Source: Heliocybe sulcata (taxonomy: Eukaryota; Basidiomycota; Agaricomycetes; Gloeophyllales; Gloeophyllaceae). From it: DNA of 64,000 bases. Where the stretch lies: NCBI GenBank assembly GCA_004369045.1, contig ML213516.1, positions 273,579-337,578 of the forward strand, in the 5' to 3' direction. Shown here one piece after another: positions 10,259 through 63,982 of the stretch (positions are counted from its first letter, which is position 1; each line of letters starts with the position of its first letter). Position numbers and translations under genes: made by a program. The notes beneath the pieces were generated by a model that worked only from the letters and a program-made list of their open reading frames with translations, ran no database searches and was not told the origin of the DNA.

Positions 10259-12410
10259 TCAACGAGCTGCAAAACGGTTCTGGGTTCGCCTGCGTACACT
10301 GCCCCGTCCAACCCAGTGCTGCTTGCTCTCTGGCTCCCATCTGTTTCGATCCCTAGACTCAGGCGCCCGACCTCCCACGACAGCCTCAGTGTCCCTCCGA
10401 AGCCTTTTGTATCCTTTGGATGTGCTCGCCATCGAGAACTTGCCACGGTTTTGTGAGCTAAAGCCCATCTTCGCGAGGAAGCTCTCAGACAGATACGGCG
10501 GTGTCGGCAGCCCGTACGTGGTAGTCACCCAGTCCTTGAGTCCCTCAAGGATGACGTTTTTCGAGACACGCAGATCGCCGTCGCGCGTGGCGTAGAACCC
10601 AAGGAGCGAGCTGAAGGTGTCCTCAATAGACTCTTCGTCCACGCGCATGTTCTCGATCACCTGCGGGATGCTCTTCACCTTCTCCACAAGGTCCTTGCCA
10701 AAGTCCCCGAGCCTCGCCTTACCTCCAGGCACGAGCTGAGGGTTCTGCTCGAACCGCTGTGCGAGCTCAATGACTTGCGACTCGAGCTCCGAGATCGTCA
10801 CGGGCTTCAAGGGGACCTCTGTAAGCTGCCAGGAGACGAAGCCGACTTCCCATGGGAGGAGGACGAGGTCGCCGCGGCCTTGCGAGCCTGCACGGCCCGT
10901 CCGGCCCACGCGGTGGATGTACTGCTCCGAGGTCGAAGGTATACCGAGCTGAATGACGCGAGTAACACCCGGGTAATCCACACCGCGCGCAGAGACGTCT
11001 GACGTGACAAGGATGGACGCGGCCGACTTGTCGGTCCTGAACTTATCACTAGTCCTCGTGCGAGCGTGTTGTTCTTTCCTGCTGTGAATCTCATACAATG
11101 CCGTGCGGGTTACTGGGAAGGTCTTTTGCAATTCCTTCAACGTAGAGGTGAGCAGACTTGTGAGCTTGGTCGTCGATGCGAACAAGATGATCTTCGATTT
11201 CCCTGCGTTGGTGAGCTGGTCGTGCACAATCAACCGAGCGAGGTGAGGTAATTGGTCTGCAGCGTTGGGCAGGATGGTGTGATACTGCGGAATGTGCGCG
11301 TGCACGGGCGAATCGTCCTGCCCAACCGTGTCGATGCCGTGGTGATTCTGCGAGAGGATGCGCGCAGCGGTCTGACTGACGGCGCGGTTCATGGTGGCGG
11401 AGAAGAGGAAGGTCTGACGTTCGGGAGGGGCAGGGAGGGCGTCCGTGATGGCGTCGAGGTCGTCCCGGAAACCCATATCCAAAAGCGTGTCGCATTCGTC
11501 CAGGACAAGCTGAGAATGGCATGTGAGAAGACAGGTCGTGGTCGATGGAAAGACACACTTACAGTGTGGACGTGCCCAAGACCCTTGCGGATTTCCGGCT
11601 CGGTCTCCAGCAAATCGCGCAGCCGACCCGGAGTAGCGACGATGATATCCCTGGTCTCTTTCATCCAGTCACGCATCTGACGCGCTTTGGACTCGCCGCC
11701 GACAAAGAGTCTGACTTGCATATTGTGGTGCAACGTTAACCGTTGTGCTTCGACCGCGATCTGCTGTGCCAATTCACGAGTAGGGCTGATAATGAGCACA
11801 CCGCCTTGCGTCCGTTGAATTAGTTTTGATATCCGTCCCCTGTTCTGCGCGTCGTCCTTGTGGCCCCCTTCCCGGATGTCTCGCGTAGTCTTTTCTTCAA
11901 TAGCACGCAGGCGGCGCTCAACAGCGGGGATGAGGAACGCCAGTGTCTTACCCGTACCGGTCTTTGCTCTGACAAGGAGATCCCGAGGATGGTCCGGAGA
12001 GTGTTTGTGAGACAGAGAGAGACGGGGTACAAGGGGCAGTACCGCAGCCTGAACAGAGGTCATGGTCTTCAGATTGAAAGGAGGACCAATGAGAGCCTTC
12101 AATGTCTGTGTGTGGATTGCACCTCTCAACGACTCGAACTCAGGGAGTTCATCCTTGGCAGGGCGCTCTCTTGGAGGAACGCTCTCTATAGGTGCAGCAG
12201 AGGGAGAGGAGCCAGCTTCTTCCACCTCTGCAATAGCTGCCGCTGTCGACTGCCATCGGTGAGCAGACAGAGCTGCATATCTATTAGAAATTTTCGCTAC
12301 TCGTTATGCGAAGGGCACTCACCCACCCGGCTGCTGCTACCAGCGGAAGAGATCCTTAGCCATGAACGGCTGCATGTCCTCCCCGTCGCCAACCACGATG
12401 AGATGGCCAT
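10259..12410 (-). CDS. Mitochondrial DEAD-box RNA helicase, MSS116-like
   Basis: ATP-dependent RNA helicase of the Mss116 type, which helps group I/II intron splicing and RNA remodelling in mitochondria. I start at 12410: exon 1 gives MAISSWLATGRTCSRSWLRI and further Ser/Arg residues without acids, a good presequence. Its intron rejoins the frame at ALSAHRWQSTAAA. Motifs in order: AKTGTGKT (I), PTRELAQQ (Ia), ATPGRL (Ib), LDECD (II, written DECD rather than DEAD), SAT (III), TSDVSARGVDYPG (V), HRVGRTGRAG (VI). The C-terminal region has the family helical extension and a basic tail ending NRFAAR. Most of the protein lies on two long exons split near motif II. It converges with CTP synthase, only 180 bp apart. 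Confidence 0.9.
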
Positions 12411-45869: not shown

Positions 45870-47291
45870 GGTTGAGTTACGCCCGGCAATAATTGTTCTG
45901 GAGAAGACGGATGTCCGCTCGTGAACCGGGACGGCGGACAGTGATTGGCCGTTATATGTGCGATCTTGCCGGCCCGGTATGCCGGCCACAGATCACAAGT
46001 TGTCGTCCTGTTCGGAGTCATGGTTGCGTCGTTGCTGCGAGTTCCCTGAGGCTTGGGATAAATGCTTGAGCTGACAGGATCAATCATTGTCTTTGACATA
46101 GTACCTGGTGAGGATAAGCAAGCGGGGCTTGAATTCATTCGGAGGTTGTAATATAGTATTGAAGCTGTGTTTGTGTAGGGTATATATATAAGCAGGCGTG
46201 CTCGTCTAAATAACATGGATAATGGAAAAATCATGTCTTGGGTCGAAATTGATGTCGTTATTCTCAATGGTTTTCCATTAGTGTAGTCCACACACCAGAT
46301 ATAGGGGCGTAGAAAATAACTGCATCACTTCATGACGGCTTGCCACAGGCTAATAACTTCAGCGCAATGGTAATTTGAGTTATCTTGAGGCCGGAAAGAA
46401 CGAAGGCAACAAGGCTGACCAGAGTTCGGCCTGTGCCACAATCGCACGCGCACGTGATACTCACCCAATATGGCCTTCCAATATCCTCTTCCGTCGATGC
46501 CTCTCACGCCACTTCCCACTGCTTCTGTCGTACTTTACGATCTGTCTGCACATTTGCATGTACGTCACCCTTAGAGTGCGCTCTTATAAAACAGAGGTTT
46601 AGAGTACTGTGCGTCCGAAATTTTTTCTTTCTCCCACTACCATCACTCTTGAATATACTGAGGTCTAATCTTGGTGGGCGCTTGCCACGTACGAACTTCT
46701 GCGTCAGAATTCTGGTCGAAGCCTAGGAGGGCATTCAACTGCATCATTTCATCTGCTAGAAATTCAAGCGACGTCTAAAACGGTGAGCTTCATTTGTGTT
46801 TTCTTTTGCTCTATCTTAGTACCGAGAAGACAGCGAAACCGTCAATCGTATCTTCTTGAGACGTAGTGCATATATCCCTGCACCACAGGCAAAAGCAGAC
46901 GTTTAGCAATCTTTATCCATATTTATTCACTTCAGAGATACAAAGTAACTGCTTTTCGAGGGGAGGGTTCAGCCTACAGGGTCTTCTTCTCTGTGTTGTG
47001 CGTTCCTGCTTTGGGAAGCATCGCTTATTCTGAAGATCATAGCCGCTGATGTCCAAATCTTAGGAGAATTTCCACTCGCATACAGTCACGCAGCGAGTTC
47101 GTGCGCCTGTGGCGAAGTTCACTCGGTCACGGGTACGACCATCTCGCTTTGTGATGTGTCATTGCGTTGACATAAGCGAGCGCTTGCGTGCGAGTCAGTG
47201 ACGCACTCACCTTCGCGTCGGCCATCCGATCTCAAATTCTCGGACAGTTTCTGCCACAACATCTGTACTCGAGTCAATACTGCACACCGAC
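45870..47291. other. Divergent intergenic region, dehydrogenase and listerin
   Basis: About 1.4 kb holding both promoters. No gene or repeat could be supported. Confidence 0.45.
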
Positions 47292-50200
47292 ATGGCGAAG
47301 AGCCACAAATCCTCCGCCTCGTCTGCCACCAAGAAGAAACACGCTCGAAAGGCAGGCGGTCCCCAACCGCAAGACCCCGCCCTGAAGAACCAGAAGAAAG
47401 ACAAGACCAAGGGCAAGGGCAAGAACAAGGAACCGCGCAAGAAGGTGTATATTCCCCCGTATAAGCCGCCACCGCCCCAACCCGATCCCTTGGACACCTT
47501 CGGCCTCGCAAAGCAGCTACCGCCAGAGCTGCTGGTCGTGCTGAGAAGTCTGAAGAAGAAGGATAGTGTGACTAAGGCAAAGGCGCTGGAGGAGTTGAGG
47601 GATGCGTGGGTTGAGAAGGCGGTTAGGGAGAGGGATGAGGAGGCGGGTACTGTCACCACGTTGGTACTTATGCTGCCTGTGTGGGTGCGTCTTGTTTCGT
47701 ATCGCATGTCTTGCTTATATTCATGAAGCAAAGGCCCACCACATCCCCTCGCTGTTCTTTTCCCCTTCGCGCCGCATCCGTCTCCTTGCCACAACCGTCC
47801 ACGCCTCGCTCCTCCGCCTCTCCGCCTTCCGCGTTGAGTTCCTCACATACATTACGGACGTAGCCTCCCCCGACCAGATCTCATACGTGCTGGGAACATG
47901 GTGCATGGCTGCGAGCGACCCCGACAGACTCGTCTCCCGCTACGCTCGACAGTCTTTTGAAGACTTTGTGACGCTCACGCCTTCGACGAATGCCAGTACG
48001 AGTCGGCTCGTGCTGAACGAAAGCACTATGGCGTCTCTCCTGGCTATGATATCAAGGACAGCTTTAGACCCGGCAGGTGTCTACTTGCAATTTCACCCTC
48101 CAATCATCAGTGTGGAGGCCGTTGTCCCTGGGCGGAAAGGCGGGAAGCAACCCCATGCCAGGCAACCGAAGCGGGACGAAGAAACCAGTACGAGAGCGAA
48201 ACCTGAAGACGAGGAAGAGAGCGAGGACGACCGTAAAGCTCGCCTACGAATTGGGGCACTCGGTGCTCTCAGATGGGTCCTTGGTAAGCTCTAACACTTC
48301 GTACGCCCACATCGACTTTACGTTCTTCCGACAGATATCCGCAAGGCATCAGGGACACAAGATCAGGGCCAGGAACCCAGAAAAGACTTGAGAGAAATTC
48401 TATCAAGCCGTGTGCTGTGGACGTGCCTCCACGAAGGGCTGTCCGCGCCTTGGATATCTGACCTGCCAAGCTTTGGGTATAACCAACCCGGCGTCCGACG
48501 AAGTGCGTGGTTATTGCTCCAATCCGTGGTAGCATTACTCGGCGCTCTTTCTGGTATGTCCTTTCTTCAACAGTTATTTACAAAAGATTACGTGCTAACA
48601 GTAAGAAGAGGAAAGCAAGGAATTATTGCCGGTACTGTCTACTGCTGTGTTGAGGAGCGCGTGGGTAGAGGGGGATGCGGGTGTTAGGAGCGGGATGTGG
48701 CAGCCGCTTATGATGTTTCTTAAATGTACGTGAGATTTTGTCGCTTCACCGGTTTCAACACTAACGTCTTTTGCAAACAGCGTATCCCGAGGCGTGGATG
48801 ATCGACGCATCGTCCACATCTTCGAGTCAAGACGAGGACGAGGGATCAGGGTCTGAAGATGAGACTGGCGATGAGGAAGAGGACGAGTCGGCCTCCGCAC
48901 CCGCCACTGGGGAGACGTCTGAGAAGGCTTCGGCAGTTACAGGAAGATCGCAAGCCTACACCGAATTCCTTCACTTCCTCTCGACAGGCTGTTCCAACTC
49001 TCCATTGCAAGGATGCCCGACTGTCGTCATCGTGCTATCAACTTTGCCAGCTTCCGTGCGAGTTCAAGTTTACCCTAATGTTGTAACGGAATCTCATATT
49101 TCTTATTTTTTAGTTCTTGACGCAGCCCAGTTTACCGGGTGCGCTAGAGGAGCTGTTCGTGGCATTCTGGGACGCGCTGGACTCCCGCGCGCTAAGCGGG
49201 CTGGATAGAGACAAGGCGTCGGCGGCGTTTTTGGAGGCGGTGTTGGAATGTACTTTGTTCCTTGTCAGGCGGGTACGCCAAGATCCTGCGTTTCAAGGTG
49301 AGGAGGGAGTGGAGGGCGTGAGTAGGGGTGTGGTGGAATCCCAGTTTAGGAAGGTGATGGAAGAGCTGCTGGCTCAGAGGTTAAAAATTGATGAGGTGGC
49401 TGGCGGGAGTATATTGGCTAAGCAACTAGGGGCACTCGAAACGATTGACGAAGGCAAGCTTTTCTCCTCCTTTTCGCCGCGTCTTGTTGATAGAGGAGTA
49501 CTTTTCTAGAGCTATTTACAGCCGCGTGGACACCCATCGCAAATACCGCCCACAGTGGGGATATCGTCAACACGCAGGCGACGAGGTTTGTGGCCGTTAC
49601 GTTACGGGGGTTCTGGGATGCTTTCAGGGAGGGCTCGAAGGCAAGGGACGCAACGGCGAGCCTGATACGTGAACTTGTGGAGAGGGCGATTGCGAATTTG
49701 AAGGCGAGGGTAAGCGAAGGAGAGGGGAAGGATGGTGAAGGGTTGATGATTGAGAGTGTAATGGAAGTGATGAGTGAAATACTTTCTGCCGACTCTGGGA
49801 TCTCTGCGGTACGCTGTGTCGGACGGTGGATGAGGAATTTACTGATATCGGTTTCGGTGCTATAGGAGATTGACGAAGCTATACAAGGGCATGTAGCGCA
49901 ACTGGTGACCACCGCGCCCTCTTTGCTGCTTACATACCTGGTGCGAAGGGGGGATGTGGAGAGGGTTGTGGAGGTGTGGCACCAGGTTCTGGACACCGTA
50001 TCCGGAAAGGACACGCAGAACTTGGCGACGAGTCTGAAGCCGTTCTTGGGTGCTGAGATGCCCGCTTACTTGGAGCCGGAAGATGGAGAGATGGACGAGG
50101 CGTTTGGGAAGTTGTTGGCGGATGAGAGGGAGGGAGAGGTTGTGCAGAAGGTGTTGCGAAACCCGAGTAGGTCACTAGCAGTTACGTTGTTCAGCTGACT

Positions 50201-53200
50201 GATTTGATTTGCCCTTCTAGAGCCATTCCTCTCGAGCAGCTGTGTTAAAGGGATAGTTGAGAACCTCACGTCGGCGTTTGGTGCGCAGCTCCAGCAGGCG
50301 CTGAGGGATAGCGTGGTGGCGATGGAGCCTTTTGAGAGGGTTCTGGGTCTGCTGCGATCTGCCTTGTCAAGCAACGGTGAGGCGGAGGTGGATGTGAGTG
50401 TGGCTCTCAGGCTGTTCCCGGATCTGGCGGTGTTTGGGTGGTTGCTGCCGAGGTATATGAAGGAAACAGGGGAGAGGGGTGAGAGTGCCTTTGATGTCGC
50501 GAGGGAAATGTGGAGGGAGGGGGAGAAGAGGTATGAGACGGAGGCGAGGGAAGTTGTGAGGGCGGTTTTCGTGGGGCGGTTGAGGGATTTGGTCGTGGAT
50601 ACCGAGGTCGTGGCTACGTAAGTCAGGTTTTGGTTCCAGTGATGAGGTTCCTGACGTCTCCGGCTGGGTTTGCTGATAGACCCGGGAATGTGCTCGACAT
50701 GGTCGCAGAAGGAGTGCCGGGACTTTATATTCACCCGATGGACGTTATACCGGGGCCAGATACTTTGCGTCAGACACTGGAGGCACTGCCAACATACACG
50801 GAAAATCCTAGCGCAGCCGTGGTCACCAACCTCATACCACCCCCGTCTCTTCTGGAAGACACCCCAACTATTTCTCCGGAGTACGACATTCAAGGATACT
50901 CGCGGTACGGAAGAGTGACTACAGCGTTAGCGCGAATTTTCAGCTCGGATAGACAGAGCGCGAAAGAGCACATATGGGCTGTGCAGCATCTTTTGGCGGG
51001 AGCTACGTACGCCGAAGACGCTATCCATCTGCAGGAGGAACGTAATCCGCTGTGCAGCCGGCAGGTGTCCAAGGCGGAGCTGCAGACGTTCATAAGCAGA
51101 GTACAGCTAGTCGCTGCGTACCTGCTTGTGCCGGATAATGAAGAAGGCTGGCATGCGAAGGTCGTTAGTAGGGTGCAGGATAAAGCAGAGCCAACTTCCA
51201 GCATTTCGTTTCTGGCCCACGTCATACGGTACGCTAGCGAGAAGGACAGCCCGAGAGAGGCCAGAATCGTATATGCTGCGCTCCAGCCTATCATGGGGAG
51301 CGCCAGTAAGGAAGACGGGGACCAGTGGATTCTACTTGCAAGGAAGATGGCCCCGTTGGCATCCATGGCTATCGTTTCATCTGTGACCAAGCTGGGTCCG
51401 GAGCCCCCGCGGTTGGATCGATACAGGAATGAGCTTGCGGCAGGCGTGCTTGGGATACGGGCTGCGAAAGCGAATGAGGAGGGGCTGTGGACGCTGATGA
51501 GGCTCGCTGCTGCTGCTCCGGATCCTGACTCGGATGTGGTGTTTTTGCCGCAGCTAAGGGCTGTGAATCTTGTGAAGGCGTGTCAGGGGTGGGTTGAGAG
51601 CGATGAGGATATTGAAGAGGAGGTCGAGAGTGTGATGACGCTGGTTTTGTATCACCTTGCGCCGATTTTGCAGGGCGTTCCCGGCGGACACTGGGATTTC
51701 ATATTTGATGTTACGGAAAATAATCTAGAGGCGAGTTCTACCCATCAGTACTCTCGTCCATTGACACTAGTTCTCACTGCCCGCCGTAGAACTGTTCCTT
51801 CAATGACGAGTCCAGCCTTGTGACACTCGCGAGGACACTCTGGCTCGTCACTGCGATTCAAGACTTAGCCACAACAAATAAGTCGTTGCGTGCAGTCTGG
51901 GAGGAGCGCCGGCAGTCGGTTTTGACCCTTGTCAGGGATCTCGTTGCATCTCGGGAAAGTAAGTAACAACGAATCACTGAGGATTTATCTGATGGAAGTC
52001 AGCTTCGGGAGACTCGACTAAACCCCAGTCCATATGTCTGGAACTGGCTATGTCGATTATTCAAGACTTGCCACAGTCGCTTCTTGATGATAAGACGTTA
52101 CCTTCAGTAAGCAGTGCTAGGCTCTTGTATAGACATGCCCTGCTTACACGATGCGCAGATGTGTCGTATCCTGCTCGGCACGTCAACAGAGGCGCAAAAG
52201 ATGGCGTATCAATTACTGCAGGAGTCTACGCAGAAATACACCGAGAACCTCGTTATCGAAGCTGGAGTCGACACCGAGGCTACTGTCAAATGCGAGCTCC
52301 CCGTAGAGCTTGTCGATATTCTGCAGAGGGGTCTTCTCGACGACGATGATTATGTGCCTAAGGTCCGTGCCCCGTATCACCAAAAGCAAAGATCCTTCAC
52401 ACTTAATTGATGTCTAGGATCCTTTCGGGTACTTCCTGGCGTGGATGGCAGCGTTTGATCTATTTTCGAATGCGGTGCGCCCACATCATTCGCTGATGGC
52501 TCGGTTTGGCTGACTTTGTGAGGTTAGTCATTCAGAGTCAAGTCAGGATATATCCAGCATCTTAGGAGCCTGGATGTTATCTCGGCGAAGTTCGTGCCCT
52601 ACGTCTTCAATGCGCTCGGTTTGTACGGCGGTCCTCGATCAACGTTCAGACTGGATCCGTGGGCAGTGGACGAATACTATATCTCTGGTAAGCTCCGCTG
52701 ATTGGCCCCCTCCTGTCCACTGACGCTAACCAATCCGCTCAAAGTATCCGATCCCGAGACTCCCTTCAGCGTACCACTCCAGGCAGCACATCTTTACTAC
52801 CGAAGTCTCCTGATCATTCCCTCGCTCATCCGATCCTGGCTACAAGAATGCAAAGATCGTTCCCTTTCCACAACCGTCACGACATTCACTTCTCAGCACT
52901 ACTCTCCGGTTATTATTGCCACGGAGTTTGCACGGGTCAAGTCCCCTGATGCAACATCTGAGTTAGAGCATGAGAACCTGGCAATAAAAGTGGCCGCAGC
53001 TGTTAACGAAGTGACGGCTTCTTGGGCTGTGGACGAACATCAGCTGGAAATATCCATGAAGTTGCCGACGGACTGGCCGTTACACCCAATACAAGTGCGA
53101 GATTCCAAGAAGGTCGGTGTGGAAGAAAGCAGATGGCGGGCGTGGGTGCTCGGTGTGCAGCAAATCATGTGGACCCAGGTTCGTTCACGTCTCATTGGGC

Positions 53201-53562
53201 GAAATGTACCGCAGCTGATAGGTCCTCTAAGAATGGCTCTATCGTTGACGGCTTGAGTCTTTTCAAGAAAAACGTCAGCCTTCACTTTGAGGGACAGGTT
53301 GAGTGTGCCATCTGCTATTCGTAAGTCAGCCCTCCGTTGTCGTGTACATCGCTCTGAAATGGGTACAGGATCATCAGTCCAATGGACTATAGTCTTCCGA
53401 AGAAGCCGTGTAAGACTTGCAAGAACAGATTCCATTCAACATGTTTATACAAGGTATGTATACATCCTGTGTGGGTCGTGGCATGGTATCTGATTATTGG
53501 TTTAGTGGTTCAACACAAGTCACTCCTCGACATGTCCCCTATGTCGCTCGGAGATCTTTTGA
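47292..53562 (+). CDS. LTN1: E3 ubiquitin ligase listerin (Ltn1)
   Basis: Ltn1 ubiquitinates nascent chains on stalled 60S ribosomal subunits in the ribosome quality-control complex with Rqc2 and Vms1. The start at 47292 ([20 protein letters not shown]) is followed by a Lys-rich leader, then [18 protein letters not shown] and [20 protein letters not shown], the conserved N-terminal domain. About 1600 residues of HEAT/ARM-like helices over some 18 exons follow. The end carries the RWD-like region and a [49 protein letters not shown], stop at 53560-53562. All zinc ligands are present. One intron near 51729 appears to be GC-AG (GCGAGT...TAG), rejoining NNLE to [10 protein letters not shown]. Acidic low-complexity segments lie near 48820-48900. 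Confidence 0.93.
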
Positions 53563-56313: not shown

Positions 56314-57427
56314 ATGTTCTGGAGACTCTGGGCCAGCTCGAATGGCATAAACTATGTGCGTGCGATGCCTTCTTCTCCCATCTACAAGGGCTCTACCGCG
56401 GCGCGCTGCATGCTAACTTGAAGTTGGCAGTAGTTCAAACACGGGGAGGAATCCTGGGCCCTTGTGACGGGCGCGTCCGACGGCATAGGCAAGGCGTAAG
56501 CAGTCTTTACATGTTGCGTACTAGAGCAACAGGGGTGACGAGTCCAAATTTCTGTCTAGAGTATGCAAGGCGCTTGCACAAAAGGGCTTCAACGTAATAC
56601 TGCACGGCCGCACCCAAGAGAAGCTCAATAGTGTGAAAGAAGAGTTGCAGGCAGCTTGTCCGGAGCGTAAATTCGAGATCGTGGTTGCGGATGCTACGCA
56701 GGCATCCCTCGTGCCTGAGGTAGCAGCCGCGGTCAAGGACAAGCACGTCACTATCTTATTCAATAATGTAGGGTATACGTCTACCTTGATTGAACCTTTG
56801 TTTGACCAAGATCCATCTGGCGAGTACTAATTCAACACTTATCCGTGACAGCTTGGACTGACCGCTAACCGCCTTGGCGCATCCTGTAATTGACAGTCCT
56901 GCAAACAGGAGTCGACGTCGGCTGCACATGGCTGACGCAGCTTACACGAGCCATGTTACCGCAACTCATTGCGAACAAACCCTCCGCAGTGGTCAACGTT
57001 GGCAGCTTTGTAGCTGCGCACCCTCCGCCGTTCCTGTCTGTCTACGCCGGAGCGAAGGGCTACAGCTTGGTCAGTCTTCCGTCTGATGCTCACATTCCCT
57101 TATTTACGCAGTTTACAGGCATTTTCTCGCGCCTTAAGAACCGAGATGCGCTTGATAGGCCATAAAGACGTCGACATCCAGTACCACGAAGTTCACTCGG
57201 TCGCAACGCAGGCAAATGGAAGGCCAGTGAGCACTATAGTGCCGCATCCGGACGCTATGGCGCGTGCGATCCTTGTTGCCATTGGCCGGCGGACGGGATT
57301 CATCACCCCGTACTGGGCGCACGAGCTGACCAGCTGGTTTATGTCTGTTGTGCCAGAGACGTGGCTCAATCACCTTGTTGCCGCGGAATTGCAGAAAGAG
57401 AGAACAGATTTGCAGAAGTCGAATTGA
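56314..57427 (+). CDS. Short-chain dehydrogenase/reductase, copy 1 (3-ketoacyl-CoA reductase/steroid dehydrogenase-like)
   Basis: NAD(P)H-dependent oxidoreductase of the classical SDR fold, closest in style to the KAR/17-beta-hydroxysteroid group. The start MFWRLWASSNGINY is followed after an intron by ALVTGASDGIGKA (cofactor motif TGxxxGIG), GFNVILHGRTQEKL and VADAT. NNVG appears in place of the usual NNAG. NVGS then carries the catalytic serine, and YAGAK carries the YxxxK dyad. The C terminus has hydrophobic helices (ITPYWAHELTSWF, VPETWLNHL) that may bind membrane. About five short introns. It is paralogous to the gene at 62920-63982 over its whole length, and converges with the repeat-precursor gene A. 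Confidence 0.87.
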
Positions 57428-57723
57428 TTCTGGTGACGAGAGTGCTGGCATACCGTTTCTTGTCCTGTCCCGATCTTACCAATCAAACTCGGTTGCTAAA
57501 GTACTCGACAGGGAGACTACAGGATATATTCGGCGGCATCATCTAACACATACAAGAAGCAAAGGTTTGCGGAGCTGCGGATGAGTCGTAGCGATTAGCT
57601 CAAATCAAGGACGTATACAAGATGATGACTTACTCGACATGCCGTTTCATAGGCCTTCACGAGTTTATTGAGCATGGCAACCCTCGCATCGTCATCGATC
57701 TGCATGGCGGCTGCGGGACGAGC
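57428..57723. other. Convergent spacer, SDR copy 1 and gene A
   Basis: About 300 bp between the stop of the SDR and the stop of gene A; nothing recognised. Confidence 0.4.
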
Positions 57724-58387
57724 TTACGAGCCAGTTGGTTGAGGGGCCGGGTCCGTAGAGCTCGAGCCCGAGTCAAAGAAACTCTTGATGCCCTCGAAAC
57801 CTTCTACTACTGCTGGAATAGCTCCCACCACCTCGGGTCCATACTTCTTGGCCGCCTTGCCGAAGGTACTGGCCGTCCTCCTGCGCCGGGCCCTAGCGTA
57901 CTATATCATCAGCGACGACAAAGCGAGTCTTTGATATTGGGACTCACGGAGCAGTAGGCTGGGCGGCCCGGTCCGTTGAGCTCGAATCAGGGTCGAAGAG
58001 ACTTTTGATGCCCTCGAAACCTTGTACCACCGCTGGAATGGCTCCCACCACCTCGGGTCCATACTTCTTTGCCGCCTTGCCAATGGTACTAGCCGTACTC
58101 CTGCGCTGGGCACTAGCGTACAATATCATCAGCGACGGCAGAGTGAGTCTTTCCTATAGGGGCTCACGGAGCAGTAGGCTGGGCGGCTGGGTCTGTTGAG
58201 CTCGAAGCAGGATCGAAGAGACTCTTGATGCCCTCGAAACCTTGTACCACGGCTGGAATTGCCTTCACCACGTCAGGTCCGTATTCTTTTGCTGCTTTGC
58301 CGAAACTGCTGGCTGTGCTCCTGCGTTGCGGTCTGGATGTATGGCGTGGTCAGCGCTGAATCAAGGGACTCTGGCATTACTTGACGC
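57724..58387 (-). repeat. Tandem exon-plus-intron repeat, 220-bp period
   Basis: Three successive copies of one unit (165-nt exon plus 55-nt intron) in gene A; the last copy ends with the stop. Similarity extends through the introns, for example GTCGCTGATGATAT in both complete introns. The duplicated block was therefore genomic DNA and is young. Confidence 0.85.
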
Positions 58388-58888
58388 ACGATGAAATGGG
58401 CTGAGGACCGGAGGATCCGGAACCAGATGTTTCTTGACCAAACACTTCCTTGTTGAAGGGTGTGGACTCTGAAATAATCTGTGGTAAATCATCAGGCGAG
58501 GCAAGGCCTCTCTTCTGAGCGTCGCTACAGATGCACAGCATGTCATAGTTCAGTCCATGCACACAGGAGCGAACAGGGAAAAACCTGACGCAATAATTGG
58601 GACAGGATACGAGAACGGAGTCGGGGCAGCAACGGCGCTGCCAATGTCTGACGGCGTCACGGAAGGCAGAATTGGCCCTGGGCCATCGTAAAACGATGGG
58701 AAGTGGAAGTGATCGCTATATCTCGCAATCAGCACCAGAGACGAGCCGTTCAGAGTCAGTGCTCACAGGGCTATCGAGGGCGTGGCCGTTGTCGATGTGA
58801 AGGTTGGAGGCTGGGGGAGCGGAACAGCGAACGGGGCACCAAGACAGGGGAAAGCAAGTAAGGCGGGAAGGATGACTGTGGCGAGCAT
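57724..58888 (-). CDS. Secreted Kex2-type repeat precursor A (302 aa, four units)
   Basis: Six exons (58767-58888, 58563-58715, 58390-58524, 58168-58332, 57948-58112, 57724-57892) sum to 909 nt = 303 codons. Exon 1 is a signal peptide (MLATVILPALLAFPCLGA); exon 2 is a proline-rich leader. Exons 3-6 each encode one unit opening with a basic site: AQKR, PQRRS, AQRRS and ARRRRT. The last three continue FGKAAK or IGKAAK, a short YGP segment, VV.AIPAVV.GFEGIKS, then a Ser/Asp/Pro/Gln linker. All internal introns are phase 2, so units can be added or lost without breaking frame. Exons 4 and 5 are both exactly 165 nt, separated by near-identical 55-nt introns. I infer secretion and cleavage by a Kex2-type protease into amphipathic peptides. 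Function unknown. The 38-nt intron 2 (58525-58562) is short and less certain. Confidence 0.75.
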
Positions 58889-58902
58889 GACGACGGAAGT
58901 CA

Positions 58903-59073
58903 CTGAAAAGCTATCCTGTTCATGACCTCAAGGCCACCGCTCAAGAGGACAAGGAGCGGGCGTGAACTCACGCGAATAAATTGACAATAGTTGTATGTTA
59001 TACGAAAAATGCAAGCAAAGGCTTCCAAGAAATTAGAGACTCGAGCGAACGCGCGAGTTGACCAAAGACTTAC
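58903..59073 (-). other. Probable 5'-UTR intron of gene A
   Basis: Donor GTAAGT immediately after a GTGCCGGACA sequence, acceptor CTTTTCAG 14 bp upstream of the ATG. Gene B has the same GTGCCGGACA sequence followed by GTGAGT at the equivalent place. Confidence 0.45.
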
Positions 59074-59163
59074 TGTCCGGCACCTGGAAGGAAAGGATAG
59101 AACGAAGAAGTGAGCGAAGAGACCTGCAAGTCCGCTGGAGTTTCTGCAGCCTATGTGCTTTGC

Positions 59164-59170
59164 ATTTATA
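59164..59170 (-). promoter_or_regulatory. TATA box of gene A
   Basis: TATAAAT on the minus strand, about 280 bp upstream of the ATG. The same distance is seen in gene B, consistent with an intron in the leader. Confidence 0.55.
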
Positions 59171-60507
59171 CCTTGCGAAGTCCAGAGTCAGCGGCATGGC
59201 AGTGCTCATCGACTGTAGAAGTCCATGCGACAACCGGTGTTCGCAGCAAGGGGAAGAGGTTTACAAGTATCAGATACAGTGGCGAAGGCCACGCCACCCT
59301 CGCAAGGGTATGACGGGCATGTATCTGAGAAGCCTTCTCGGGTACTGGATCGTTTTGTACCAGAAATATGGGGTGGAATCGCTGCACAAGAGTATTCTGA
59401 CTCTTGAGTCCAAGCAATATGTTTTCAAATCCACGGGCAAGGCTCTTGAAGTCTCCGGAGCAGCATTCCTTCAAGTCTTATAGAAGCTTATAGTTTATTG
59501 AAGCGCGCCTGGCCTATGCAGGGTATCCGTAGTGGGTCCGAGTGCCCCGATCAAGGTGGCAACATTCGAATGGTTTTATGTTGTTCAACAGACGGCATTG
59601 TCGGTGATCTCAGCACGAGATTGTACAGTCTAGAGTCAAAGTGGTCCAAGATCAGTACTAGTACCACAAAAGACTGAACGCCATGACGGACGCTAGTCAT
59701 GAACGTACGTAGAAAGCTATAGTTTGATAACATGTACTGTTCAGTACTGTACAGAAGAAGTCCCATGAGTATAGTTCCATCGGGCCTCGCAAGCTCCATA
59801 GAGACGCATTATCTTCGTCGCGGCCCTCAAGTGAGTTGAAGCTCAAGTAAGTTGAAGAAAGTCTCGAGTCGCTCAGTCGGAGGTCTGAATCTTCCTGTCT
59901 CTCGTGGACGGGCCGGACTTCCGGCTAGCGGACCGTTGCACCTCTGAACAAGTTCGAACAGGCATTTCACCCAGCATTTGCATTAATACCCTAGACACTC
60001 AGCGCTGAATATTGACTAGTTCTCGCAAGTTCGTAGTTCGACCCCTTTAGTCTTTTGAATCAAAGGTGTGCATTTCTCTGACTTAATCTGCACATTCCAT
60101 ACCTCGATTGACTGAGTCCCTATCTGATCAAGTCCTATCCTCTGTGTCTATGGGGTACACCTCGCTATTGGATAGAACACAATCAACTGCGCAAAATGCA
60201 TCCTGCCTGCCTTTCAGTCATCGGCCAAGCTCCCAAGAAAAGAAAGGACGGTAGAAGCTCCACCCCCAAGGACATCCTCAACGTCCTTGCCGATGCTTCG
60301 AGACGGCAGGCGTTTCGTACCAATACTTCAAATTCAAATGTTAGTGTCAATCATGGAATTACTATCATGGACAGCCCGAATTCAGGTGCTCACACAGGCC
60401 TTTGAGACAAGATCTGCTTCAGAGTTTCCCGGTCCAAACCGCGACGGCTAGGTCTAAATGGCAGCCATGAGTCAGTCTCAGAAGAAACAGGTTAGTCTGT
60501 AAGGCTC
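59171..60507. other. Intergenic between the two repeat-precursor genes
   Basis: About 1.3 kb. A plus-strand ATG frame at 60196-60405 (69 codons; KKRKDGRSSTPKDIL, SNVSVNHGITIMDS) is basic, lacks a signal peptide and has no known family; it may be spurious. No other gene seen. Confidence 0.4.
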
Positions 60508-61749
60508 TTACGAGGAAGTGGGCTGAGCGTCACTCGAACCCGAGTCAAGCAGATGATCTATACCATCCACAATATCCGAGCCATGCTCCACCGCAAACTT
60601 GAGGGCATCGCCGGCAAGACTCCTACGCTGCGCCCTATGCCATGGCATACTGAGACCAGTATCAGATAGACTGAAGCGTGCACACATACTGTGAGGTGGG
60701 TTGAGGGGTCGTTGCAGTGGGACTGGAGCCCGAATCGATGAAGCTTTTGATGCCGTCAAAGCCTGATATCACTTCCGGGAGGGCGTCCACCACTTTTGGC
60801 AGTAACTTCTCTCCCGCTTGGAAAGCTGCGCCAGCAAGGCTTCTCTGCTGCACCCTGACATCACTTGTGATCAGTAATAGATAGAGCTGTTTGGCAGTCG
60901 AAAAACGTACGAAGTAGATTGAGGGCTTGGATCGGTCTCGCCTGCGACGGGCACAATACCGTTCACTGGTGAGATACCTCCAGTAATCTCGTATCCCTTT
61001 GCAAACTTGTTGAATGCTTCGACGGTGCTTCTTCGCTGTGCTCTGTGACGATCCCATGTTAGCGATCTTCCCTCAGAGCTTTTGTAAGCGGACGCACGAT
61101 GAGCTGGCCTGGGGACTCGACGCTCCTGAATCCAATCCGAAGATCTCACCGATTTCTTTTGCGACGTCAGGAACATCTCCGAAAATTGTGGAAAGTCCCC
61201 TCCTCCGTTGGTTCCTATGTCGTGCAGCAGTATGAGTCCGAAAATTCGAAATGCCGCAGTACCTAACAAGGGATCATACGTACAGGCCATTGACTAAGTT
61301 GGGAGCCGCTTCTGGGCCCAAATTTATTCCAGGAAATAGGGACAGTGGAAGGGTAGCACCTCTGTCAAGAAGAGCGTCAATAATGCGGTATAGGGCATTA
61401 GGCATGACGTACGTGGGAGTGGCAGATGCGACCGACGAGGGCGCGGCAGCAAGTGCAGATGCAGACGAGGACGGGGGCGGGGACGCTGTGGCCTGGGCAG
61501 ATGCATAGGAGGATGCCGGATGGTCTTTGCCGTGATGTCTACCGTGATAATTCCCAGCCATTTGAGGGTTTCTGTTTTACATGCGTCAGTGCTCTGGAGT
61601 AATGGACGGCGTAAACCAGTCGCGCACGATGGGAAAGACGTAGGAATGGACGATACTATGACGGGAGTACCGGCTGAAGGAAGCACGATAGGTGCCGCAA
61701 GACAGTGCGAAGCTGCAAAAATGGCAGGAACAAGAATAGTGGCACGCAT
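60508..61749 (-). CDS. Secreted Kex2-type repeat precursor B (295 aa, four units)
   Basis: Seven exons (61640-61749, 61413-61571, 61284-61361, 61098-61214, 60911-61042, 60690-60854, 60508-60634) sum to 888 nt = 296 codons. Exon 1 is a signal peptide (MRATILVPAIFAASHCLAAP). Exon 2 is His/Ser/Ala/Pro-rich (NYHGRHHGKDHP, then SASALAAAPSS). Exons 4-7 each carry a unit opening NQRRRG, AQRRST, VQQRSL and AQRRSL, and ending in a Ser/Gln/Pro/Thr linker. The exon-6 unit keeps the A-type core (KVVDALPEVISGFDGIKSF) and the ancestral 165-nt length. The others have diverged to 39, 44 and about 42 codons. Introns between units are 55-56 nt and phase 2, as in gene A. Paralogous to gene A; same inferred secretion and processing, older duplications. 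Function unknown. Confidence 0.75.
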
Positions 61750-62027
61750 TATGATAGTAATGGAAAAGACTAATTGGGATCTCAGTACCTTGCTCCAGGG
61801 AGCCAGAACTGAAGACTTACTAGTATAGATTATCAGTGCTCAGCACGACAAAGTTTGCAACAAGTATACAAAGAAGGTGTAGTATAAAGGCTATAGGTGG
61901 TTGAGGTAAGATCGAATATCGCAGGGCGTTGATGACTCACTGTCCGGCACCAGGTAAGAGAATAGAATGAAAGGCTGAGCGGAAGACCCTGTTTTCGCTG
62001 AGGTTTCTACAACTTGGGCCCTTGAAC

Positions 62028-62919: not shown

Positions 62920-63982
62920 ATGCTGTGGCGACTGGTTTCGAATCTGAACGGGATTGACCAAGTGCATATTTCATGTGAATCGAGTCTACGAGCCGGTAAC
63001 TCATTATTTTCCATTAGTTTCGTGCAACAGATGAACCCTGGGCCTTGGTGACTGGAGCATCGGATGGTATAGGCAAATCGTAAGTTCCTGGGTCACCCAT
63101 GGCCGTCGTCTAGTGTTCATCTGACATGCACAGTCTTTGCAAAGTCCTTGCGAAAAGAGGCTTCAACGTTCTTCTCCACGGACGAGACCACAGGAAGTTG
63201 TACAAGTGTTGCCAAGAACTGCTAGCAGCACACCCGTCTGGAAAGTTCGAGCTCATCGTCGCAGACGCGACTCAGCCGGCCACTGTACAAGACGTTGTTA
63301 CTGCAGTCCGTGGCAGGCCAATTACCGTATTGATCAACAACGCCGGTTATACTACCGGTCCTGTTCAGCCTCTCCTGACTATTGACCCTGAAGGTAAATG
63401 AGCAGCGTCTCTTATTGTGTATACGCGACCTAGCCATCGTATCCGCAGAAATTGGAAGAGCGATCAGCATAGGCATAACTTGGACTATCCAGCTCACGCG
63501 AGCCCTTCTCCCAAGACTGGTTGAAACACAACCGTCAGTCATTGTCAATGTTGGAAGTTACGCTGCATCGCATCCCCCGCCTTTCATCTCGGTCTACACC
63601 GGCACGAAAGGCTTTCTACAGGTGCGCCCCCTTTGCAGGTTTCGCATTCTTGTTCATTTGGTGCCTTTAGGCCTTCTCTCAGTCGCTTAGGAACGAGATG
63701 CGCACAATAGGTCACAAGGGCGTTGAAGTTCAGTACCACGAGGTCTATTTTTGTTCGACGAAATCAAACGGCGCACCGGAGAATCTGGCTACACCTTCGC
63801 CAAATCGTATGGCCCATGCTATCATCGCCGCCGTCGGTAGTTGCAAGGGCCATGTAGTACCTTACTGGGTACACGAGCTCTTAAGTTGGTTATTTCTTCT
63901 AGTTCCCGAGCGGATCATTAGCAGGATAGCGGGGTCGGTTCTGGCAAGGAAAAGAACCGATACTGGCACTTTGTGGCAGTAG
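62920..63982 (+). CDS. Short-chain dehydrogenase/reductase, copy 2
   Basis: Paralog of the gene at 56314-57427 with the same exon plan. It starts MLWRLVSNLNGIDQ, then PWALVTGASDGIGKS, GFNVLLHGRDHRKL, VADATQ and LINNAGYT (canonical NNAG, unlike copy 1). NVGSYAASHPPPF carries the catalytic Ser; the YxxxK dyad is in YTGTK. Then NEMRTIGHKGVEVQYHEV and C-terminal hydrophobic segments (YWVHELLSWLFLLVPE), ending GTLWQ at 63982. An intact active site is predicted. It is divergent from gene B and may share its regulatory region. The substrate is unknown; long-chain ketoacyl or steroid-type substrates are likely by similarity. Confidence 0.87.

Follow-up and report, generated by a model that had tools for sequence, protein, structure and literature searches.

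Genes A and B are neighbouring, secreted-looking precursor genes on the minus strand (A, 58888-57724; B, 61749-60508) of a 64,000-nucleotide stretch of the Heliocybe sulcata genome (contig ML213516.1, positions 273,579 to 337,578). This stretch is called the window, and coordinates count from its first letter unless a contig is named. A and B are probably a divergent pair of Kex2-processed repeat protein (KEP) genes, whose products would release amphipathic helix-plus-tail peptides that would act most like the Rep1 repellents of Ustilago. As read from the sequence, the pair is characterized by its exon layout, intron phases, basic sites, a tandem exon duplication, constraint on units A2-A4 and a shared upstream region. 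Precursors of this kind are known in fungi; the layout, with one exon per putative peptide, is unusual.

Modelled exon structure of genes A and B

The gene models are sequence-based and join consensus GT-AG exons. A and B have a common layout of signal-like N-terminus, leader and four units. All features are on the minus strand.

57724-58888: gene A coding region, six exons, 286 amino acids; splice models, all five introns phase 2
58888-58767, 58715-58611, 58524-58390, 58332-58168, 58112-57948, 57892-57724: gene A exons
58767-58888: A exon 1, signal-like N-terminus (CLGA/P), 122 nt, length and phase as in B exon 1; hydropathy
58611-58715: A leader exon, GTATCC donor at its end; splice model, least certain part
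58390-58524: A unit 1 exon (AQKR/GLASPDD...), nearest to B unit 1; splice model, dibasic scan
58168-58332: A unit 2 exon (PQRR/STASSFG...); splice model, repeat, dibasic scan
57948-58112: A unit 3 exon (AQRR/STASTIG...); splice model, repeat, dibasic scan
57724-57892: A unit 4 terminal exon (ARRRR/TASTFG...), ending TC/GTAAGC with the stop TAA inside; splice model, repeat, scan
60508-61749: gene B coding region, six exons, 316 amino acids; splice models
61749-61628, 61571-61284, 61214-61098, 61042-60911, 60854-60690, 60634-60508: gene B exons
61628-61749: B exon 1, signal-like N-terminus (CLAA/P), 122 nt; splice model, hydropathy
61284-61571: B leader exon, Ala/Ser/Pro-rich, an extra internal 51-nt intron possible; splice model
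61098-61214: B unit 1 exon (NQRRR/GLSTIFG...); splice model, dibasic scan
60911-61042: B unit 2 exon (AQRR/STVEAFN...); splice model, dibasic scan
60690-60854: B unit 3 exon (VQQR/SLAGAAF...), monobasic boundary; splice model, missed by the dibasic scan
60508-60634: B unit 4 terminal exon (AQRR/SLAGDAL...), ending TC/GTAAGA with the stop TAA inside; splice model, scan

All ten coding introns in these models are phase 2, and the eight internal exons all have lengths divisible by three. Every unit exon (8/8) opens with a basic site, after one codon completed across the junction. The openings are DAQKR, PQRR, AQRR and ARRRR in A, and NQRRR, AQRR, VQQR and AQRR in B. Seven of the eight are dibasic; the boundary between B2 and B3, VQQR, is a single Arg, so B2 and B3 would stay joined unless that residue is cut. 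Products apparently cut after a single Arg have been reported in Pichia by Vogt et al. (PMC9769878). Neither gene needs a frameshift or an internal stop in its model. Both N-termini have a hydrophobic core followed by an A/P cleavage-like site, as judged from hydropathy alone.

The gene pair, its coordinates and its unit boundaries had been proposed in an initial annotation of the same DNA, and the splice models bear these out, as does a blind scan in the case of the A chain. The list of unit-opening basic sites given there is right for all eight units. The lengths given for the products were 302 and 295 amino acids and differ from the 286 and 316 obtained here; because the unit exons match the quoted sites, the mismatch is placed in the leader exons, which are the least certain part of the models. 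In the frame of unit A1, the segment 58525-58610 (minus), A intron 2 of the model, is without a stop and gives a cysteine-rich reading; an alternative A leader that uses it is possible.

The blind scan covered both strands and looked for a YAG acceptor, [KR]R within codons 1-6, an open frame, and a phase-2 GTRNG donor 85-180 nt on. In the window it returned A1-A2-A3-A4 as one four-exon chain at the modelled coordinates. The longest chain in 300 dinucleotide-preserving shuffles of the window was 1 (290 shuffles) or 2 (10 shuffles). B1, B2 and B4 are among the 12 scan candidates on the minus strand, and B3 is absent because its site is monobasic. Of 28 sampled loci, 13 lie clear of A and B; in these (together about 60 kb, some overlapping one another and one overlapping the window end by about 1.6 kb) the longest chain was 1. 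A genome scan for an acceptor followed by [AP]QRR gave 92 + 84 sites, against 81 + 81 in the control. None of the 100 places listed from these 176 is clustered or lies on C14, the contig of A and B; as the list holds 100 of the 176, further such genes elsewhere in the genome are possible.

The last unit of A and that of B both end in TC/GTAAG, and the TAA of this donor-like site is the stop codon. The GTAAG occupies the position at which the exons of the other units stop. Whenever GTAAG or GTGAG after a phase-2 exon is left unspliced, the reading is NNG-TAA or NNG-TGA. The unit exons therefore behave as in-frame cassettes, and in the models a unit exon can be gained, lost or skipped with the frame intact. 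Retention of A introns 1, 4 or 5 leads to a stop at once (for 4 and 5, a Pro codon and then the stop), and the late unit exons of A can therefore be internal or terminal modules. With any one of six other introns of A and B retained, translation would run on for 2-19 residues and then stop; B intron 1 is open throughout.

These properties raise the question of whether splicing sets the peptide content, with symmetric phase-2 cassettes skipped in frame and an unspliced GTRAG ending the protein at a unit boundary. The peptides released from one gene of this type would then vary in combination and number. The uniform phases and lengths (10/10 introns, 8/8 internal exons), the immediate stops at retained A introns 4 and 5 and the GTAAG endings of both terminal units agree with such a role, and exon-modular secreted families exist in the aphid bicycle genes (PMC9168663) and the schistosome micro-exon genes. 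We consider it unlikely, since just 3 of the 10 introns stop at once when retained, retention could simply trigger decay, and plain exon duplication also gives this layout. The cassette layout may only explain how such arrays evolve.

The bicycle and micro-exon genes resemble A and B in that they are described as encoding secreted, fast-evolving proteins from many exons. Nearly all internal exons of the bicycle genes are reported to be phase 2, and the same paper describes genes built of many similar-sized, equal-phase exons as a rarity in most genomes (PMC9168663). Unlike A and B, the bicycle and micro-exon genes come from animals and are described as having unusually small exons; they show no sign of relation to A and B.

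Repeat history and shared upstream region

The late part of gene A is a tandem duplication:

57723-58382, minus: three tandem 220-nt repeats, each comprising a unit exon and the adjacent intron; the other two copies are 64% and 84% identical to the reference one

The encoded units A2, A3 and A4 are mutually 81-87% identical. The ratio of nonsynonymous to synonymous divergence (dN/dS) is 0.08 for A2/A3, 0.07 for A2/A4 and 0.17 for A3/A4, with dS of 0.5-1.7, and the variable columns among the three fall 8, 6 and 32 times at codon positions 1, 2 and 3 (P = 7e-7). These values show that the amino-acid sequence of A2-A4 is under purifying selection. Unit A1 is nearest to B1 (51%) and then to B4 (48%); B3 shares 44-52% identity with A2-A4. 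As A2-A4 are near-copies, A holds two kinds of peptide and the pair about six distinct ones.

Introns 4 and 5 of A (57893-57947 and 58113-58167, minus) are identical at 47 of 55 sites, at least as alike as the synonymous sites of the flanking exons. They differ at 8/55 sites and A3/A4 at 7/26 four-fold sites (P = 0.22, not significant). Gene conversion or constraint is a possible cause of this likeness.

The similarity of A and B extends upstream of the coding regions, where a TATA-like box and, downstream of it, an exon end resembling that of a 5' untranslated region (5'-UTR), GGTGCCGGACA/GTRAGTC, are common to both:

59067-59084, minus: A upstream element GGTGCCGGACA/GTAAGTC, interpreted as the end of a 5'-UTR exon with its donor
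61934-61951, minus: B upstream element GGTGCCGGACA/GTGAGTC

The exact 18-mer occurs at two places in the 31.6 Mb genome, before A and before B. Matches with up to three mismatches are background (43 sites, control 40); just the exact copies stand out.

These features suggest that A and B arose by duplication of a whole gene together with its promoter, and that one unit was amplified threefold in A. The genes would have grown as phase-2 cassette exons were copied, with a complete unit in each exon. B is clearly a paralog of A and, if cut, would work as A does.

Properties of the units and relation to known precursors

After trimming, the eight units are 36-53 residues long, contain no cysteine and have a net charge of 0 to -6. 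The initial annotation expected up to eight different peptides of 40-55 residues, which is too many in view of the near-copies in A. An 18-residue stretch is amphipathic beyond shuffles in six of the eight units (uncorrected P < 0.05). AlphaFold models built from five-sequence alignments have one helix (residues 2-39 in B3, 3-37 in A4) and a disordered tail; their confidence is low, with a mean predicted local distance difference test score of 63. The units are thus consistent with helix-plus-tail peptides.

Published KEPs (Le Marquer 2019, Umemura 2020, Vogt 2022) have an N-terminal signal peptide, to which the signal-like N-termini of A and B may correspond, and likewise have KR/RR-separated units and a compact repeat region. 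The units of A and B differ from them in being long (36-53 residues), divergent in B and encoded by one phase-2 exon each. Le Marquer 2019 asks for at least four fragments after KR/RR cleavage, and A yields five and B four, leader and C-terminal fragment counted. For Vogt 2022, two other fragments must share at least 70% identity with one fragment, as is the case in A: the A2, A3 and A4 fragments are 81-87% identical with KR/RR cuts and 81-90% with KK and RK added, as scored by Biopython local alignment instead of BLAST+. A kexin-type gene is present in the genome, as one P_proprotein (PF01483) match lies above the cut-off (C3:41291-41458) in a six-frame exon search, by which further kexins may be missed.

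The Umemura survey names Heliocybe for one KEP type spread over 49 genera. This is probably another type, because the search with A gave no such wide family. The word 'exon' is absent from the main texts of Le Marquer 2019, Umemura 2020 and Vogt 2022, and 'intron' occurs once, in a methods passage. No recognised case of a fungal precursor with one exon per unit is present among the open-licence literature matches listed, which is weak evidence of absence.

In mode of action the nearest parallel is Rep1 of Ustilago maydis, whose amphipathic, Kex2-separated repeats of 34-55 residues form surface-active, amyloid-like fibrils on hyphal walls; the repeats of Hum3 are given as 31-36 residues (PMC4617103). 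The units of A and B are similar in size (36-53 residues) and in their Kex2-type separation, with one of the eight boundaries monobasic, and six of the eight are amphipathic beyond shuffles. Rep1, unlike A and B with their four units each, has twelve repeats in 652 residues, and the likeness is drawn from published description. No match named Rep1 appeared in the public protein searches with A and with an alignment of A and B, none of which was aimed at Rep1. The SP7-like effectors of Rhizophagus also have a signal peptide and imperfect repeats, and their gene structure was taken as evidence of common origin (PMC11333574). In contrast to the units of A and B, their repeats are hydrophilic and several of the proteins have a nuclear localisation domain; 'kex2' is absent from the main text of that report.

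Transcription, secretion, cleavage, peptide release and a surface function are what we infer for A and B. The precursors would enter the secretory pathway, Kex2 would cleave after the RR or KR that opens each unit, and a Kex1-like carboxypeptidase would trim the basic residues. The products would be cysteine-free peptides of 36-53 residues, in which about 30 N-terminal residues would form an amphipathic helix ahead of a disordered Ser/Thr/Pro tail, and would most likely be extracellular and surface-active or wall-associated, like the Ustilago Rep1 repellents. Knockouts of KEP genes in Coprinopsis are reported to lack a detectable phenotype (PMC9769878), and a subtle or ecological role is therefore also possible for A and B.

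No convincing relative of A or B was found in the H. sulcata genome, public proteins, Pfam or PDB sequences. Protein searches of the own genome return A and B and one further match (C4:1114936-1115316, E 0.157). This is a long Ser-rich open frame that by eye is unlike a Kex2-unit precursor, and it was taken as a chance match. One public protein, P0001, matches A (E 2.7e-3, 30% identity over 42%), and the common part is a run of TAS..G repeats of about 19 residues without dibasic separators; it was rejected as a relative, which is a judgement. The A and B alignment gave no match among public proteins when the best 8000 candidates by shared words, with lengths of 0.55-1.75 times that of the query, were scored. 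All Pfam matches of A and B are below the cut-off. A profile search of PDB sequences has a de novo design as its sole match (E 1.5), which was rejected. A neighbouring short-chain dehydrogenase (SDR), used as control query, finds proteins of H. sulcata, Gloeophyllum trabeum and Jaapia, so the public search covers close species.

Several observations weigh against the KEP reading. Le Marquer 2019 also asks for at least three similar fragments, the C-terminal one left out; scored by pairwise identity, without the FIMO step of those authors, A has two (A2 and A3) and B none. By the Vogt 2022 measure the fragments of B are too unlike each other, and its B2/B3 boundary is monobasic. Two pairs of B fragments alone reach 35% (47% over 19 and 55% over 22 residues, with length differences of 61 and 60). 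Because B satisfies neither similarity rule, its KEP membership is not established by definition. A3 (P = 0.081) and B2 (P = 0.424) are no more amphipathic than shuffles, and the neutral to acidic net charge of the units also counts against a KEP of this type. A3 and A4 carry an internal KK that could be cut, and KK is counted as a cleavage site in one KEP screen (Vogt 2022). The evidence of constraint is limited to three repeats of one gene, and without a convincing homolog the units lack support from conservation between species. A and B are also not found among the H. sulcata database proteins, whereas the flanking SDRs are. They may never have been predicted by annotators; the absence from relatives may therefore be an annotation gap and is no sign of a young origin. 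With these points counted, paralogous Kex2-type precursors, as initially annotated, remain the best reading, with the peptide number and the separation of B2 from B3 revised.

Antimicrobial or cytolytic peptides directed against competitors, as in other multi-peptide Kex2 precursors, are a doubtful alternative. Membrane-active peptides are mostly cationic, and all eight units have a net charge of 0 to -6 and no cysteine framework. Such a function would suit the predicted secreted amphipathic helices in tandem and the suggestion of Vogt et al. (PMC9769878) that the biotic environment is the target of KEP peptides.

It is improbable that A and B encode uncut repetitive wall or matrix proteins with basic spacers, or are decayed loci that are not expressed. 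Their absence from the annotated proteins would fit, and the monobasic linker indicates that dibasic sites in B are not strictly maintained. Yet a basic site stands at all eight unit starts, dibasic at seven, though the unit bodies have diverged, and the open models and the purifying selection in A argue against decay.

Signals of a developmental or mating-like kind are very unlikely, although alpha-type pheromones belong to the KEPs (PMC6339444) and the amino-acid sequence of A2-A4 is constrained. XA or XP follows the site in at most one unit of eight (A4, TA, if cut after RRRR), the units exceed the pheromone size class of 9-24 residues (PMC6339444), and the B repeats differ strongly from each other. 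A ribosomally synthesized and post-translationally modified peptide precursor of the dikaritin type can practically be dismissed: the plan of an endoplasmic reticulum signal with Kex2-separated repeats is that of ustiloxin-type precursors (PMC7329392) and at least 18 UstYa matches lie in the genome, but none among the matches listed is on the contig of A and B, and the units are 36-53 residues long and modelled as helical.

On the KEP reading, A and B bear on how such genes are found. The screens of Le Marquer and Vogt are described as starting from predicted proteomes and requiring similar repeats. A and B were not found among deposited proteins and B does not pass the similarity requirement, which suggests that such screens can overlook precursors built from exons. 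Should the Kex2 site regularly accompany a given exon phase, one could search for divergent peptide precursors of fungi by gene structure, the approach that worked for the aphid bicycle genes (PMC9168663).

Neighbouring genes

A short open frame (57633-57702, minus; MQIDDDARVAMLNKLVKAYETACR) begins about 22 nt past the A stop and ends at a GTAAGT donor. It has no Pfam match and may represent a further small gene or an exon that was lost.

Two SDR (PF00106) paralogs flank A and B at 56317-57427 (plus) and about 62930-63980 (plus). They are 46-55% identical exon by exon; at E 0.001 the genome search yields no others apart from two weak matches. No SDR remnants were found by tblastn in the interval between A and B or in the region upstream of B. 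Four Jaapia argillacea relatives of the SDRs, among the matches listed, are perhaps on one contig, which hints at a locally duplicating SDR family.

Further away, a gene at 10259-12303 (minus) is presumably a DEAD-box RNA helicase, judging by its motifs. The long gene at 47202-53560 (plus) ends in a RING-like tail (C-x2-C...C-P-L-C) and resembles one for the E3 ligase listerin (LTN1).

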